The translations under genes were made by a program, and so were the position numbers. The notes beneath the pieces are model-generated. The model did not search any database. It worked only from the letters and a program-made list of their open reading frames with translations, and was not told the origin of the DNA. Of a DNA stretch of 64,000 bases, positions 6,394-63,904 are shown one piece after another. This DNA comes from Corallium rubrum (taxonomy: Eukaryota; Cnidaria; Anthozoa; Scleralcyonacea; Coralliidae). Each line of letters opens with the position of its first letter. Position 1 is the stretch's first letter. The DNA is taken from contig OZ036007.1 in assembly GCA_964035015.1 (NCBI GenBank), positions 4,580,997 through 4,644,996 on the forward strand, read 5' to 3'.

Positions 6394-7124
6394 AGTTTTT
6401 CATATGTTTTTGCAGTACAAGCTGTCATTTACTGCGACTTGTGGCCCAACAAGTACTTGTGACACACGACCAAGTTTTCCTTGACAAGTTCCTTGGTATA
6501 GCTTTCCTTACTCGTGTGTACGATGAACAATTTTTTCCCCCAAACATTTTCCTTGACAATTTATAATTGCTCGTGTGTACGGTTGGACAAGTTTTCCTTG
6601 ACGGCAATGGTCGCGTAATAAGCTTCGGAGATGATCTTGTCAAGTTTTCCTTGACGACTATACACACGAACAATTTTCTTTGTTCAAAAGCTGGCATGAC
6701 CAGCTTTTGAACAAAGAAAATTGTTCGTGCTCCTTATCAAGGAAAAACTTGCCAATTTGTGTCGAATACACAAACAAATAAAACTTAATAATTGTCAGTT
6801 GTTTGCTGTACAAGCTGTGTTAGTTAGTAATACTCAGAAAAACTCTGAGCTCTAAGCGGGACTCGAACCCACAACCTTCTTACTAACACCAAGCTGCAAT
6901 TTCTGAAACTAACAAATAAAACTTGTCAAGGAAAAACTCGTCAAGGAAAACTTGGTCGTCTGTGCGGCGCTTATTTGATGTACTATCTGAGTTCCAGTGG
7001 CTCAACGGTGAGAGCGTCCGGCTGGCATTCGGAAGGTTGTGGGTTCCAGTCGCTTCTGGAGCTCAGAGTTTTTCTCTGAGATTAACTTACGACAGCTTGC
7101 ACAGCAAAAACATACGAAAAAATG
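6394..7124. mobile_element. Fold-back element with two inverted tRNA-like segments
   Basis: The ends are inverted copies: TTTTTCATATGTTTTTGC on the left and its near complement on the right (7086-7124). Inside lie two inverted tRNA-like segments. One is read on the minus strand (6828-6905: GGTTGTGGGTTCGAGTCCCG, a B-box-like sequence), the other on the plus strand (6990-7075: TGGCTCAACGGTGAGAGCG as an A box, then GGTTGTGGGTTCCAGTC as a B box). Between are several copies of CAAGTTTTCCTTGAC and a perfect palindrome at 6665-6729. It is best explained as a nonautonomous element built from, or invaded by, head-to-head tRNA-derived SINE pieces. Confidence 0.55.
6665..6729. repeat. Perfect 30-bp palindrome with 5-base loop
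   Basis: Arms 6665-6694 and 6700-6729 are exact reverse complements around the loop CATGA. The arm contains AATTTTCTTTGTTCAAAAG. Confidence 0.95.
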
Positions 7125-32603: not shown

Positions 32604-32868
32604 TTTGTTTACAATGTTTACATATTTCAAGCGCATTTGTGTGACGCATTAATTATGACGCAGCTACCGCTGACTGACTGTGGGCTCAATTTGGTTCTAA
32701 GTGGTGATTTGAGTTACAGTGGATTAGTGGAAGGGAAAATGGACAAATGGTAACTTGCTTCATGGCTGCTTTGCGTCATTTAAAAGATAATACATGATTA
32801 ATACCATAAAGTGTGGACTGGGATTTGAACCCAGAGAAATGAATTTGATTCCCACACCTGGGCACACT
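32604..32868. other. 5' flank of IDH3B
   Basis: The likely promoter of IDH3B. Contains AATTATGACGCAGC and a TGACTGACTGTGG; I cannot assign a defined core promoter. Confidence 0.35.
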
Positions 32869-32869
32869 T

Positions 32870-33995
32870 TTTTTTTTGGTATGTTTGGTACTTCTGTACC
32901 ATATAGAAAGATTGAAAATACAGCTGTCATTGTATGGTTATTTTTTGTTTTGGTATGTTTGGTACTTCTGACTGTACCATATAGAAAAGTTGAAAACAGC
33001 TGTCATTGTATGTATATATTTTTTGTTTTGGTATGTTTGGTACTTCTGTACCATATAGAAAGGTTGAAACCACAGCTGTCATTGTATGTATATATTGTTT
33101 GTTTTGGTATGTTTGGTACTTCTGTACCATATAGAAAAGTTGAAAACAGCTGTCATTGTATGTATATATTGTTTGTTTTGGTATGTTTGGTACTTCTGTA
33201 CCATTATAGAAAGGTTGAAAGCAAGCTGTCATGGTTATTTTGTTGTTTTGGTGTATATTTGGTACTTCTGTACCATATTTAGAGAGGTCGAAAACACAGC
33301 TGTCATTGTATGGTTGTTTGTTTTGGTATGTTTGGTACTTCTGTACCATACAGAAAGGTTGAAAATACAGCTGTCATTGTATGGTTATTTTTTGTTTTGG
33401 TATGTTTGGTACTTCTATACCATACAGAAAGGTTGAAAACACAGCTGTCATTGTATGGTTATTTTGTTGTTTTGGTGTATATTTGGTACTTCTGTACCAT
33501 ATTTAGAAAGGTTGAAAACACAGCTGTCATTGTATGGTTGTTTGTTTTGGTATGTTTGGTAACTTCGCTACAGAAAGGTTGAAAATACTTTTGTATGGTT
33601 ATTTTTTGTTTTGTTCGCCTTTATGTACTTTTATACCATACAGAAAGGTTGAAAACACAGCTGTCATTGTATGGTTATTTTTTGTTTTTAGTATGTTTGG
33701 TACTTCTGTACCATATAGAAAGGTTGAAACATAGTCAATCGAGATATGGTCTGGAAACTCCGCTAAAGTCTTTAGTTATCTTTTTGTTCGCCTGCACGGT
33801 GTAAGGTACGGTTCAACATAAAATCACAGCTCATTATAGGCGCTTTGAAGTTTGCCGAGTTTCCAGACCATATCTCGATTGACTATGGTTGAAAACAGCT
33901 GTCATATATTGTATGGATATAAATTGTTTGTTTTGGTATGTTTGGTACTTCTGTACCATATAAAAGGTCGAAAACACAGCTGCCATTGTAATTTT
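32870..33995. repeat. ~75-85-bp minisatellite, about 14 copies
   Basis: Unit: GTATGTTTGGTACTTCTGTA, CCATATAGAAAGGTTGAAAA, CACAGCTGTCATTGTATGG, then TTATTTTTTGTTTTG. Copies differ by small indels, so frames shift along the array and the ~100-codon open frames have no meaning. Interrupted by a MITE at 33730-33886. Confidence 0.95.
33730..33886. mobile_element. MITE inserted in the minisatellite, 8-bp duplication
   Basis: Exact ~30-base inverted ends (ATAGTCAATCGAGATATGGT and on to CTGGAAACTC). GGTTGAAA, part of the satellite unit, is duplicated at 33722-33729 and 33887-33894. An 8-bp duplication suggests hAT; one base of the border is ambiguous. Confidence 0.8.
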
Positions 33996-35502
33996 TAACT
34001 ATTGTAACTGTCAATGTATATTTTGATACCTTTTTGGTTTATCGACCATTTTAGCTATTGTGCGATCTAATTCTGGCCCTATATCGAAATTTACAGCGAG
34101 ACAGTCTTGTGTGCTGCAACAAAAAACTACAACGTCAGAGAGGCCAGGAAAAACCTTAATTTATAAGGAAACCTGAGTCAGGCCAAGATGTTGTAGTGTC
34201 CCCTGACAGGACTCAACAATTATGTGTTTACAAATCTTACAATTATAGAAATTAATAGACAATGAGGTGTCTGAGAAGCAACTATTGTTGTAATTGTGAA
34301 GTGCATGTGTACAGCATGGGAAGGAGTGCTCAGTTCCTCATACAATTGCTGATAATACTATAATAGTAATTACTTTTAGCTATTACATTTTACCCAATCA
34401 TTACTAAAATATAGAAGAATGAAACATGGACAAATTTATTTTTATTTAATTTTTCTAACTACATACATTCAACTTAATTATTTAATGAACAAAAAACCTG
34501 CAAAGCAAATGTATGATTAGAATCTTAGAATAATTTTATGAATAGCAAATGGTCATTTCACTATTCATTTTATAAATTTTAATGCTGGTTACCTGTGGAG
34601 CAGAGTAAAGAGACAAACACAATTTATTAAACCCTTTATTTACTACTGACAATTACTCGTTTACAAGTGCAATAAAACAGGAAACAGTAAGTCTAAGTAG
34701 GATATTGGACAGTGGACTACATGTAAGTGTAATCGGAGTGGATTTTGACCACCGGGTGCAAACATTAACCAGAGAGCTGAATATTTCTCATTGTACAGTA
34801 ATTATAGTGCAGCTTTAAGGACTGTAGTCTATACATTTTGAATCCCTATCTGAAAATTGCTGCACAGTTATGTGTACTGTAGCACCTTTTTTTTTCAATT
34901 TTTGTACCATTAACATATTTTACCTTATATAGTTACAAAATAAAACAAGTCTTTGATACAGAATTTTAACCAATAATTTTTTATTGAATGGGTAGACAAA
35001 CTGTATACCCATCATTCCACTAATTAAAGTTACTTAGTTTATAGTTATAGCTAGTGTATGGATCAAATTCACCAATACCACAATTATAATGTAAGACTTT
35101 TTTGGTCAAATAAGTTTTCCTACTTTGGGAAAATGTCTTTGGAAGATAATGAAAAGTAGCCATTAAAATATACATTACTTGGTGGAATTCATAAAGTTGG
35201 TCCATTCACCAATCCCGGTGGCACATGCAAGCATTATAATGGTACAAGAGGGTGAATCTTTCCAAGCACATCATTGGGAAATGAATCGTTTCCCTCAGTA
35301 ACTTGTTAAGCTGGTTCCCTCAGTAAATATTAATTACACTAATTAATCTGTCTAATAACTGCAAACTGAACTGCTGCCTACAACAATTTAAAAATGTACA
35401 CACCTGATCCAAATGGTGATGAGAGTCCATGGAAGCTAAAAAAACTAAGACTAAGATATACTTATATTATTACCAATGCTAATTAATTAATCTATTGTAG
35501 TA
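33996..35502. other. AT-rich intergenic stretch
   Basis: No conserved coding or inverted repeat noticed. Confidence 0.4.
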
Positions 35503-35787
35503 TAACATTTATTGATTTAAACTGCTGACATGCAGTACAATAAATGTTAATTACAGACATACACTCAAAATAATCTGCAACAAGTATATAATTTTGCATA
35601 AAGTCTGAAATTAAATATTTATTGGTTTAAACTGCTGGTATGCAGTACAATAAATAGTTGCATGCACCTGAGAATTAATAATTAATATTGGTTTAAACTG
35701 CTTTCAGTACAATATCTGTAATTACAATATCTGTAAAAATTATCAATAATAACTTATTGATTTAAACTGTTAACAGTACAATAAGTT
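35503..35787. repeat. Hairpin repeat cluster A (four copies)
   Basis: Copies at 35503-35549, 35616-35656, 35685-35715 and 35751-35787. Plan: outer arm ending TTATTG, ATTTAAACTGC or similar, short loop, GCAGT, A, CAATAA... The outer arms pair fully in each copy but differ between copies, e.g. AACATTTATTG with CAATAAATGTT, and AACTTATTG with CAATAAGTT. Inner stem ACTGC/GCAGT. An internal ATTTAA is unpaired against a single A. See the finding. Confidence 0.75.
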
Positions 35788-36410
35788 GGTTCATTACATG
35801 CTCTGATCTAAAGATGTATACATAAGGCTAAAAGTAATTTGTACTAATTATACCAGTCATAGTAATTTGTACCTATACTCAATACCTGCTGTCCACCATG
35901 ACTAGATGAATGTCCACCATAGCTGTTATCCACCAGATGCAGGGTACAATTTGTACCCAGAAGACTAGTTGGCCAAGAAATCCTATACCAACAGTCTACA
36001 GCAATGGGTAGTTTTTAATAACCCAGCCTGTCCCCTGGACCACACATGCCTCAAGACTATGGTCAGGGGCACAGGGTGTGGTTTCACCAAACTGTTGATT
36101 AATGGTATAGCTTTTCTTGTGTAATCTATCTATATTCTGCTCTATCTAAAGCACTGTATATAAGTTTTAATGTATATATATTTTTTTGCCACCAGGATTC
36201 TAACCTTCAGCTTTCTTAACCCAATTTGGATTTCCATCCAGTTGACCATGACTGCAGACATCCACCATGTTGACCACTCAACAGATTTCCAATGACCATT
36301 GTATAAATCCATTTAAGTCCATGTAAAACCATAAATCTCAGAGGTCAAAGTGTTCAAAATTGTCCAAGGTTTAATCTTTGTGGAAATAGAGTTCTCCCCC
36401 AAAATATATA

Positions 36411-36605
36411 TACAGGGTATACCAATAAAAATTACACTGTAATTGCATGATCAGTGCATCAGATGTGAAATTATAAATTTTAATAGAAAATTTAGTGCCA
36501 GGCTTTGGCAGTAAAATGAGACAATGTTTTCATTTGGAATTAATTGTCTTTGAAAGAGAAAACGAACTTTATTGTATAACTGATCATAGGGGACCACACC
36601 CTGTA
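36411..36605. mobile_element. mariner-like MITE (TACAGGGTATACC)
   Basis: TACAGGGTATACC at the left, GGGACCACACCCTGTA at the right, TA at both borders. Ends of the TACAGGGTG type are common in Tc1/mariner elements. 195 bases. Confidence 0.5.
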
Positions 36606-36616
36606 TGTATATTTGA

Positions 36617-36656
36617 AGAAATTAGCATTGATTTAAACTGCTAAACACTAAATTTC
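36617..36656. repeat. Hairpin repeat, diverged single copy
   Basis: AGAAATTAGCATTG, ATTTAAACTGCT, then CTAAATTTCT. The outer arm sequence has changed completely compared with clusters A and B, yet AGAAAT/ATTTCT still pairs. Confidence 0.5.
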
Positions 36657-36710
36657 TGAAGAGCCATTTCATACACGTGCAAGCTGAATGAAAATATCGT
36701 TAAGCATTTT

Positions 36711-37209
36711 TGCAGGCTTTGGAAATAAATGTGACCAGGTGTCATTCAGTAGCTGGCACTCTTGTTCAATCGTTTTGTATTCAGAGACCTTGATTGGCTC
36801 TCTGATTCATCATGAAAAACACTGGTGGTTATTGCCTGTAGTCAAGGATAATTGCTTCCACACCTGCTTGGCAACCAGGAATTTTTCAATTGTGCATTTT
36901 AACTACAGTTTTGGTTTTATTTTAATCCTAGCTAGTGTTTATAGTCCTAGTTAATTTTATTTTGAGTTCTTAAGTTTAAGGTTTAATTGGTTTATGTTAA
37001 TTAATCCTAGCTAACTTAAAATGCCCAAATATAAAAAAATTCATAATTGTCAAACAGGAATGGAAACAACCATCCCTGACTACAGATAATAAACCAGTAT
37101 TTCCCATGATGAACCAGAAAATCAGTGAAGGCACCAAAATGCAGAACAATCGAATAAGTGTGTCAGCCACTGGATGGCATCTGACTATCTTTATTCTCAA
37201 AATCCTGCA
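36711..37209. repeat. Old inverted duplication, ~240-bp arms
   Basis: The left arm (from TTGCAGGCTTTGG) and the reverse complement of the right arm (from TTGCAGGATTTTG) stay alignable through GATTCATCATG.AAA.ACTGGT, CTGTAGTCA.GGAT and GCATTTTAA. Identity by eye is only about two thirds. Lies between the two hairpin clusters. Confidence 0.6.
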
Positions 37210-37236
37210 ATAGTTGCATCAACTGAGTAATCAGTA

Positions 37237-37557
37237 ATTTATTGATTTAGACTGCTAATTACAGTACAATAAATATTGCTATAAAGACAAAACAATTAAC
37301 CCATACTTATTGATTTAAACTTGTAACAGTACAATAAGTATATTTGCATAAACTGAAAATCGTTGATACTTTCGTCTCGGAATAATAAATATTTATTGAT
37401 TTAGACTACTGATAGTACAATAAATATTTGCATAAACGAATTAGCTAATCAATGCTTATTGATTTAGACTGAACTCACAGTACAATAAGTATATTTGTAT
37501 ACACTCAGAGTAATCAATATCTATTGATTTAGACTGCAAGCAGTACAATGAATATTG
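37237..37557. repeat. Hairpin repeat cluster B (five copies)
   Basis: Copies at 37237-37274, 37304-37340, 37387-37429, 37455-37489 and 37515-37557, spaced 60-83 bases. Spacers share TTTGCATAAAC and GTAATCA, so this is a tandem array of a ~67-bp unit containing a hairpin. Outer arms again vary but pair: TACTTATTG with CAATAAGTA, AAATATTTATTG with CAATAAATATTT, CTTATTG with CAATAAG. Confidence 0.75.
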
Positions 37558-38989
37558 CCACACACTCTGGAACATTGTTTGTTTTGATGATATATTAAAA
37601 GCAGATTTTTAGGGAAAACCCAGTGTCACAAATCATTGAACCATGTCAATTAGAATCAACCTAAAAACAATTAGAAATAATTATTACACATTGCATTTTA
37701 AAACTATAAGCATAAACAGTCCACATGAATGTATATAATATAATCGGGAACTTACGAAATTCGCTCGAATTTTTGCTAATTAAATTAACTTAATTTCCCT
37801 TGGTCCCGAGAAACGTCAAATTGTCGACAAGCGGCAGAAAATGTGTTAATACTAAACCTCCAAATGCAAAGTTTTCAAAATTATACTAAAAATGAATTTA
37901 GTGTGCTATTCTTTAGGTCACGACACTTCCTCGACTCGGCCTTTTTTTGTTAAATTTAATTTAACAAGTACAGTACCGAAGCTGGTGTCGAAGTTGCCTT
38001 TGGTTGGGTGACAACCTGAATTTGTTCGACCGTTATTAGGTACGTGACATGACGTCTTGCTCCTTCCGCTGTTCTCAAGTTAAATAAATCCGACTGGGTT
38101 TTGTTTGTTGCCCGAAGTGACATGCAATTTTCTTCGTTTGGTCCGGCAGTTTCGAAATTACATTCTTGCTTTGCTTTCGGTGGGCCGACAAGCGACAAAA
38201 AATTGGAAAAAAATTGTTAACAAATATCCAAACTTCCAAAACTACAAGAATTTGTTCGAGTTCTGTAGAAATTAAAACAGAGAAATAGTTAGAACACTGA
38301 ATACTGTAGACGGCTAGTTATAAAATCTCACCGCACGCGCCTGATTTAACTTCAAACCAAACTCGACATTTTCAGGCAAAATGCATACCAAAACGGTTGA
38401 AAATGCTTTGGAAACGTTTCCTTGTACTCGAGGAGACTTAAAGGCAATACTTCAATCGACAAATAGTCGTAAATGAACACTAAATTCGAAGCAAACGGAC
38501 AGCCGAAAGTGCCGAAGGCAAAACACAAAAAGCTCAGTGCAGATTCGGACCGAACTTTTTGGTTAAAATTGACTGGAATTCTCTTGAAATGTTCAGCGGA
38601 GCTTCTGAAGACTTTATCAACGATAGATAGACGAAAAACGAATGTCAAAGAGTCGCAAAGCCGGAGTATCCGAGACCAGAACTGTTGAATGGCTGCATAG
38701 TCGGCACGACACGTGAAAAATTCGGGCCCCAACGAGCGGTACCTTTCACCGCCAAAAAATCATTTAAAATTCAAAAGAACACACAAGAAATGCAAATATA
38801 TACCTAAGTTTGCTGTGAAGAAGGCTTCTCGACGGGTTTCTTCCAACTGCCGCCGGTATTTGAGGTCAGTTTAACTTCGACGAAGAACACAGCAAACCTT
38901 TCCTTTGAGAAGCCCAACTTGAAGTGCGGGGCAAAAAGTTTGAAAAGAAATGCCAAGGAATCGAGGAATTCCCAAGGGTGGCGCGATTC
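37558..38989. other. Intergenic stretch with unassigned GC-richer blocks
   Basis: From about 37,900 to 38,960 the base composition rises and both strands hold 70-126-codon frames, none starting convincingly or resembling a family. It may be regulatory or a non-coding transcript. I assign no gene. Confidence 0.35.
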
Positions 38990-39115
38990 CCAATAACCGG
39001 TTGTGATTGGCTGATACGCAAAGTGGTTGCTCATTATTGGTCAGTTTTCAGCAACTGTCATTGGTCCTTTTTTCACTGATCCTTCGGCCATCGTTCTCAA
39101 AAATTTTGATCCGTT
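38990..39115. promoter_or_regulatory. Cluster of CCAAT/ATTGG boxes
   Basis: Within 75 bases: CCCAATAACCGG, GATTGGCTG, ATTATTGGTC and CATTGGTCC. Clustered CCAAT (NF-Y-type) boxes are typical of animal promoters. Which gene it would serve is unclear; RRP12 starts 1.1 kb downstream. Confidence 0.3.
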
Positions 39116-40224
39116 GTGTTTCTTTTAATATTTTCCAGAGGAATTACTCGTCCGGATTTGGGGTTTTGGTACATTTGTACAAATGGGAACAAAAACAAAG
39201 ACGTCGTTTAACTGAAAATACGAATACATTTTAATATCTCTTCTTAAAACTCGAGTTATGAAGCCTCGAAGGTAAAAGAGCTTTTGATCTTTGGGGCAAT
39301 AAACAACATAAATGCCAAATAATACCATTATAAACAAAACGAAAGAACAACATTACAGTTATTTTGGATAATTGGGCAAGGGTTCTTGCTGGATTCAGAA
39401 TTATTTGTGTCATAAAGATGATTTTTGAGAGTGAAAAATGCGATTTTGGATTTGGAACAAACACACGCTTGAGCTTGGCTTGGGTAAGGATCAAACGAAC
39501 GGCGGACCTCTGCGAAGACACCACCTGAATGGCTCAAACATTGGAGGGATGACATAGCGGTGTACGTACGTCATGGATGACATTAATTGTTTTAATACTG
39601 TAAGTTATCGTGAATTATTTAATTTCTTGACGAAAAGTTCAAACTGCTGCAAGTGTATCAAGCCAATATCAAGCTTGTATGCAGTCCGACATATTAGTTG
39701 GAACGATATACTGTCCGGAGAGTTAATTTTTAATTTATAGCATACATGAATGGCAACATTTAGATATTTGCAGACTACCTCTGGAAAAGAGGGATTGGAA
39801 AGAGAGTGGAGTAGGGGAGAGAAAACTCAAAAGGGAGCTGAGGAATTTCGAAAAGGGGAACAATGGGAGAAGAGTATAACTATGGGAAAAGGGAAGTGGG
39901 CCTGAGGGAAGACTAGAAAGACCATCCCTTCCCCACCCGCCCTTCCAGCCACCCTCCCCCTAGTCGACGCCCTTCCCCAGTAATCACGGTATATAGGTAT
40001 ATGGTGATATAGAGTACAAAATAGACTTGCTCCAAGTCTCTCTCTCGCTCTGCTCTCGCTGCGGCACGCAAAAACAAACAAAACAAAAGAACAGAAGGAC
40101 AAACGCAGGCAAAAGCTACGCAATACAGTATTAGGGGTACATAAAGTACTGGTGATAATTATTACCGCAGACATTGTGTTGTCGCTGTCTCGCTTGTGCA
40201 CATGGATCAACAGAACATTTCAAA
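39116..40224. other. Upstream region of RRP12
   Basis: No coding recognised. The segment 39,900-40,224 is likely promoter and 5' UTR. TATATAGG at 39991 is a possible TATA-like site, uncertain. Confidence 0.35.

Positions 40225-63904
<23,680 letters not shown>

Follow-up and report, generated by a model that had tools for sequence, protein, structure and literature searches.

Covarying hairpins in Corallium rubrum lie within a dispersed 6.7-kb unit that may be a structured noncoding RNA gene

Short hairpins in the window

Between 35.5 and 37.6 kb of a 64,000-nucleotide stretch of Corallium rubrum DNA lies a group of short hairpins whose outer arms differ in sequence between copies and still pair. 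We refer to the whole stretch (contig C28 of genome G000, positions 4580997-4644996) as the window; the genome comprises 474 Mb in 312 contigs, and loci are named by contig or by our own numbers (W for the window, L009 onwards). The question is what keeps these arms complementary: the work of a folded RNA, a property of the DNA itself, or a process that serves no function.

The preliminary description counted ten hairpins. Nine are intact and form two clusters, one at 35503-35549, 35613-35659, 35679-35721 and 35748-35790 and the other at 37233-37278, 37301-37343, 37387-37429, 37450-37494 and 37515-37557, all assigned, as the likelier strand, to the minus strand. Each matches covariance model R1, which finds these nine copies in the window at E up to 1 and none outside 35.5-37.6 kb; the model was built from 97 copies that include the nine, so their recovery is by construction. 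When a 17-base left motif is searched for with as many as 3 mismatches, the window yields 12 matches, and 10 of these fall on the plus strand within 35.5-37.6 kb; chance predicts 0.79, and the maximum in 100 shuffles is 3. This motif marks the tenth copy (36619-36662, likewise assigned to the minus strand), which the covariance model misses; it is broken, being without its CAGTACAAT half and folding no better than shuffles (z -0.95). Since five other loci (L009, L010, L012, L013 and L014) each have, between two clusters, a lone hairpin whose core is intact or nearly so, decay is the best reading of the window copy, and the AGAAAT/ATTTCT arm pair, which was offered as an example of covariation and rests on this copy, is withdrawn. 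The two clusters stand, and the ~67-bp period ascribed to them is approximate, with spacings of 66-110 bp in the first and 63-86 bp in the second. Folding every copy singly, as had been proposed, gave on the minus strand z below -2 in 5 of the 10 hairpins and not in the other 5, so that folding energy alone is modest evidence.

Covariation and constraint among hairpin copies

The possibility that the unit is found only here, raised in the preliminary description, does not hold. The strict pattern TTGATTTARACTG-N3-14-CAGTACAA has at least 66 matches genome-wide (474 Mb) and none in the control, and all of them fall in 11 loci: five on C28, two on C20, and one each on C22, C23, C32 and C49. Within each locus the matches share a single orientation. 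The exact hairpin 17-mer occurs at 18 places in 7 loci. Several loci repeat the arrangement of two hairpin clusters with a single hairpin between them, and the C23 locus holds about 25 copies.

Covariation was scored on alignment A1, which contains 97 of the 108 listed copies (95 distinct sequences); 11 decayed or indel-bearing copies, including the broken one in the window, were left out by eye. The covariation score was 0.165. None of 500 shuffled alignments scored as high (0.085 +/- 0.006), and sliding the partners gave at most 0.073; 87.8% of cells pair. The paired arm changes reported between copies, apart from the withdrawn example, are real: 11 of the 16 pairs have changed on both sides. 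Related sequences can beat shuffles without any structure, and it is the slid control, together with the several pair types seen at outer pairs 6 and 7, that argues against such an artefact of kinship. Across 127 candidate copies (at least three of them, in L047, L054 and L055, probably spurious), none of 2,000 shuffles scored as high as outer pairs 5, 6 and 7 or inner pair 1; one did for inner pair 4 and two did for outer pair 2. The 1% level was not attained by the remaining outer pairs (1, 3, 4 and 8-14) or by the second and third inner pairs. Double Watson-Crick changes, counted on a tree of 118 copies, number 23 in outer pairs 1-12 and 3 in the inner pairs. Outer pairs 6-11 show 15 double changes in register versus 1 with the partner slid by one, and single breaks are commoner on the tree than double changes.

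The asymmetric internal loop is also constant, as had been claimed: it reads ATTTAA or ATTTAG in 106 of the 127 candidates and faces an A in 126, figures inflated by the use of that very motif in picking the candidates. Among seven loci, the hairpin core is better conserved than the spacers in all 21 pairwise comparisons (p from 3.1e-5 to 1.9e-21), for example at 96% of 332 core sites versus 82% of 521 spacer sites between L009 and L010. Spacers were taken within 80 columns and a copy was counted if found in either locus, so these values carry some bias from motif-based copy finding, and the sites are not fully independent.

A long stem between the clusters

Folding and comparison of loci revealed a second structure, a stem of about 150 pairs situated between the two hairpin clusters, with arms at 36708-36899 and 37019-37212 (putatively minus strand). 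The minus strand of 36,690-37,220 folds at -200.8 kcal/mol, compared with -111.7 +/- 6.6 for 100 shuffles (z -13.6). The stem is present in all nine hairpin loci examined (W, L009-L014, L045 and L049), with 151-178 long-range pairs and minimum free energies (MFE) of -172 to -240 kcal/mol; the partial copy L046 is without it. Its arms are 70-78% identical within a locus, and corresponding arms are 69-97% identical between loci. RNAalifold predicts a consensus of 161 pairs, 149 of them in the long stem, with compensatory changes in 27 of the 161 and a small covariation term (-0.8). Two-sided changes occur in 28 of the 161 pairs versus 16.5 +/- 2.7 in shuffled and at most 16 in slid alignments, and the covariation score is 0.256 versus 0.215 +/- 0.007 and at most 0.115, respectively. 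For further pair types the margin over shuffles is less clear, with 14 of 500 scoring as high. Both the short hairpins and the long stem thus covary beyond shuffled and slid controls; for the hairpins this answers the doubt, voiced at the outset, that the pairs might not covary.

Long inverted repeats that form a stem occur in hpRNA or endo-siRNA loci, and the coral inverted repeat resembles them in this respect. The locus could accordingly be an hpRNA source whose long stem is diced into siRNAs against some target, with the short hairpins secondary. Retention of the stem in nine of nine loci, at the folding energies given above, speaks for this; arms of just 70-78% identity would be poor material for perfect siRNAs, the arrays of short hairpins on the flanks are unlike hpRNA loci, and their covariation would be left unexplained. 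We regard an hpRNA source as doubtful.

Wobble pairs and the choice between RNA and DNA

If the folded form is RNA, one strand should tolerate wobble pairs better than the other. Breaks on the hairpin tree, read on the plus strand, comprise 44 A.C, 24 G.T and 95 others. An A.C on the plus strand is a G.U in minus-strand RNA, so the excess of 44 over 24 points to minus-strand RNA. More copies fold better as the minus strand (76 of 118) than as the plus strand (39 of 118), and the long stem is more stable on the minus strand in nine of nine loci (G.U 222 versus A.C 126); the stem-less L046 goes the opposite way. G.U variants occur at 61 of 130 consensus Watson-Crick pairs and A.C variants at 41, a count biased by prediction of the consensus structure on the minus strand. 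Because the copies share ancestry, neither the wobble nor the covariation counts are independent observations. Judged from the sequences, the asymmetry moderately favours minus-strand RNA.

This asymmetry bears on two readings that do without an RNA. In one, the hairpins are regulatory DNA, near-palindromes that bind a DNA-binding protein or extrude as cruciforms, which would account for their two-fold symmetry, their clusters and the conserved spacer words. A loop that ranges from 0 to over 10 bases fits a stem-loop better than fixed half-sites, and strand-specific wobble would not be expected of a cruciform; we consider regulatory DNA very unlikely. In the other, there is no function, and template switching or conversion between arms, a known process, keeps the palindromes symmetric. 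The AT-rich arms and the many single-sided breaks on the copy tree would suit such a process, which had been suggested for these hairpins and may underlie some of the paired changes. By itself, conversion should erase the asymmetric ATTTAA/A loop, yet the loop is kept, and it predicts neither the core constraint nor the wobble bias, so that an absence of function is the least likely of the readings considered here. The earlier view that the folded form matters is supported by covariation and core constraint, with the wobble asymmetry favouring RNA over a DNA cruciform, and the folded shape of an RNA is probably under selection.

A paralogous unit of about 6.7 kb

The hairpins had been described as a field. 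They are in fact part of a unit of about 6.7 kb (32809-39530, putatively minus strand), defined by homology among seven loci, that the earlier account missed together with its promoter-like end, the ~150-pair stem and a tRNA-like end; it is likely a noncoding RNA gene with its promoter. Read from right to left, the unit consists of a 17-mer, three CCAAT boxes, the hairpin clusters around the long stem, a tandem array of 74-bp units and, last, an A tract with a tRNA-like sequence. Alignment of the seven loci extends over about 32.8-39.6 kb; the stretch 37.7-38.1 kb has diverged, and L014 differs left of 34.8 kb. Similarity stops sharply at the left end in six loci and at the right end in twelve. 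Most units of the 74-bp array (32868-33729, strand again assigned as minus) hold a hairpin of the form TGGTAC-loop-GTACCA, of which there are 10 in 31.5-41.5 kb. An inverted repeat with nearly perfect arms of about 29 bases (33731-33759 / 33858-33887) interrupts the array and looks, by eye, like a small insert.

The unit is located between isocitrate dehydrogenase exons (27.4-28.5 kb, minus strand; Pfam Iso_dh) and, at 40.2 kb, a reading frame that we take to resemble the start of RRP12, for which a Pfam search gave no match. Within the unit, none of 10 ORFs had a Pfam match above its cut-off; the array ORF had two sub-threshold matches, one of them CxC3 (E 0.018, 15.3 bits versus a cut-off of 26.6). 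Possible splice donors and a minus-strand frame rich in glycine and histidine (35.88-35.94 kb) at first suggested a coding gene. That reading was rejected, as indels between loci break this frame and many frames carry stops in other loci; short spliced peptides are still conceivable.

Dispersed copies with sharp ends, partial copies elsewhere and the lack of recognised coding sequence in the unit are what one would also see if it were a non-autonomous mobile element, spread by a transposase or retroelement that recognises the hairpins and the tRNA-like end. Such an element would have to be reconciled with few copies and old divergence, and with a core constraint (96% versus 82% between L009 and L010) of the kind left by function kept after duplication. 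Neither a target-site duplication nor a terminal inverted repeat was seen by eye at the aligned ends of the unit, and the 10 ORFs held no mobile-element Pfam domain above the cut-off. We judge a mobile element unlikely.

The promoter-like right end

At the right end, three CCAAT boxes start at 39006, 39036 and 39060 (39006-39065, putatively minus strand; 30- and 24-bp spacing), and the 17-mer GGACCTCTGCGAAGACA occupies 39504-39520 on the plus strand. The 17-mer is present in 12 of 18 loci (L010, L011, L013, L014, L045-L048, L051, L052, L055 and the window) and was not found in the fetched DNA of the other six (L009, L012, L049, L050, L053 and L054). All of the 12 except L046, L047 and L051 have three CCAAT boxes beside it, at spacings of 30-35 and 24 bp. 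Allowing one mismatch, GGACCTCTGCGAAGACA occurs at ~439 places distributed across the contigs listed, compared with 1 for the control; it is perhaps a promoter or boundary element, or a long zinc-finger site.

No right-end block was found at C20:12.07 Mb. The one at C28:11.3 Mb is separated from the hairpins by about 14 kb. A genome search with 37.6-39.6 kb brought up further relatives, including partial copies. On C39 (8233718-8570416) the right-end block occurs at ten places, spaced 12-54 kb apart. Four of them (L052-L055) were fetched and contained no hairpins by the covariance model and no tRNA-like end.

The tRNA-like left end

The left end of the unit is a tRNA-like sequence (32809-32869), preceded directly on the minus strand by an A tract (32868-32877), both assigned to that strand. 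A 21-mer that includes its T-arm has eight exact matches in the genome, which are six hairpin loci and the small contigs C184 and C238, alike in their local sequence, and it recurs with one mismatch in the hairpin loci at C20:13.06 and C28:11.34. The tRNA-like sequence is therefore at the left end of 8 of the 11 hairpin loci, with no match within 2 mismatches at C28:10.09, C32 and C49. At up to 2 mismatches the T-arm search gave 43 places and its reversed control 158, so the count itself is no evidence, and we use only the eight exact matches and the left-end placement. In nine copies read (W, L009-L013 and L056-L058), the closing stem AAGTGTG/CACACTT is constant, the T-arm CTGGG-TTCAANT-CCCAG varies at N alone, and a GG placed by eye at the D-loop is constant; the L010 copy is shorter. 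The Rfam alignment uses a different closing stem, GUGUGGG/UCCACAC, so the fold given here is provisional.

In 8 of these nine copies the A tract directly precedes the tRNA-like sequence; it is interrupted in L011. The A-rich stretch also forms part of the 74-bp array unit and so counts as independent evidence in C184 and C238 only. In these two contigs (C184:117720-117890 and C238:165700-165870) the same tRNA-like sequence follows A-rich and U-rich tracts, and there is no match to the right-end block. A U-rich tract lies some 890-1,390 bases upstream in L009, L011 and L013, about 37 in L012 and about 45 in L057, and none was found within 1.5 kb upstream in the window or L010. The U-rich motif, which at MALAT1-type 3' ends forms a triple helix with the A tract, is not a constant feature of the family.

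What the tRNA-like sequence is can be narrowed by scores. It is not recognised as a canonical tRNA: it reaches 18.9 bits with Rfam tRNA (gathering score 29), and ARAGORN makes no call there. mascRNA-menRNA (RF01684) is among its best minus-strand Rfam matches, at scores below the gathering score of 42.5 bits (18.8 in the window, 19.0 in L056, 16.0 in L057), and neither tRNA nor mascRNA was matched, at E up to 10, in a scan of the whole 7-kb unit. Membership with MALAT1 was rejected on this score and on the inconstant U-rich motifs. A SINE or plain tRNA was also rejected, as three one-mismatch T-arm matches elsewhere (L059-L061) are without the closing stem, and so was a plus-strand Pol III transcript ending in a T run, as no sequence before the T run is conserved in six aligned loci. 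On a 101-base stretch the highest-scoring family is Plastid-ycf2, a plus-strand match with 19.2 bits (E 0.049) where gathering requires 65.7; it is taken as chance, as are the Rfam matches to TUG1_1 and MIR7533.

Elsewhere in the window, a tRNA-Ala at 6,991 is the sole tRNA called by ARAGORN and the sole Rfam match at the gathering threshold, in keeping with the earlier statement that the hairpins belong to no named family. The window also has many simple repeats, among them long arrays with units of 15 bp and 30 bp in tandem (44489-45941 and 56739-59637).

A candidate family of structured noncoding RNAs

One RNA-gene family would join the promoter-like end, the single orientation, the lack of recognised coding sequence, the two covarying structures, the wobble bias and the tRNA-like end. 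We therefore favour the reading in which a long structured noncoding RNA, made by RNA polymerase II, contains the hairpins as internal repeats that dock a protein, and in which at least 11 paralogous genes make up an old family of such RNAs; as the U-rich and right-end results are not uniform, our confidence is moderate. In this scheme, RNA polymerase II would begin at the CCAAT-box promoter near 39.0 kb and transcribe the minus strand as far as about 32.8 kb. The ten or so stem-loops with their constant internal loop would be repeated docking sites for an RNA-binding protein, and the ~150-pair stem between the clusters would add a double-stranded platform. In most members the 3' end may be set by the tRNA-like fold, cut by tRNA-processing enzymes as MALAT1-type ends are by RNase P and RNase Z. 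Tandem stem-loops act as multivalent protein docking sites within a long RNA in the roX RNAs and the Xist A-repeat; the coral unit has tandem stem-loops in common with both, and its stem and loop sequences differ.

A MALAT1-like, tRNA-type 3' end is possible and unproven. PMC10869381 reports MALAT1 from jawed fish and tetrapods and not from lampreys, and PMC12941219 describes MALAT1 and NEAT1 as the sole lncRNAs using the tRNA-processing machinery. Like MALAT1 and NEAT1, which carry mascRNA and menRNA ends in jawed vertebrates, the coral unit is noncoding, several kb long and has an A tract by a tRNA-like sequence at its putative 3' end. Unlike them, it scores far below gathering for RF01684, lacks a U-rich tract within 1.5 kb in the window, and belongs to a family with other neighbours, at least 11 loci, hairpin arrays and a long stem. 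By analogy, the coral family would at most work like MALAT1 and NEAT1, and is not a member. Far more tentative is the idea of an undescribed multi-gene lncRNA class that combines an independent MALAT1-type 3' end with stem-loop arrays and a ~150-pair stem and acts as the architectural RNA of a nuclear body.

Our literature search recognised no paper describing the hairpin motif, the 17-mer GGACCTCTGCGAAGACA or such an RNA family, and this looks like a hairpin RNA gene family so far undescribed. Few lncRNAs have a structure backed by covariation, and those are disputed. The eleven paralogous loci offer more than 100 stem-loop copies and nine examined stems of ~150 pairs in one genome, and with so many paralogous copies the structure is statistically testable within that genome.
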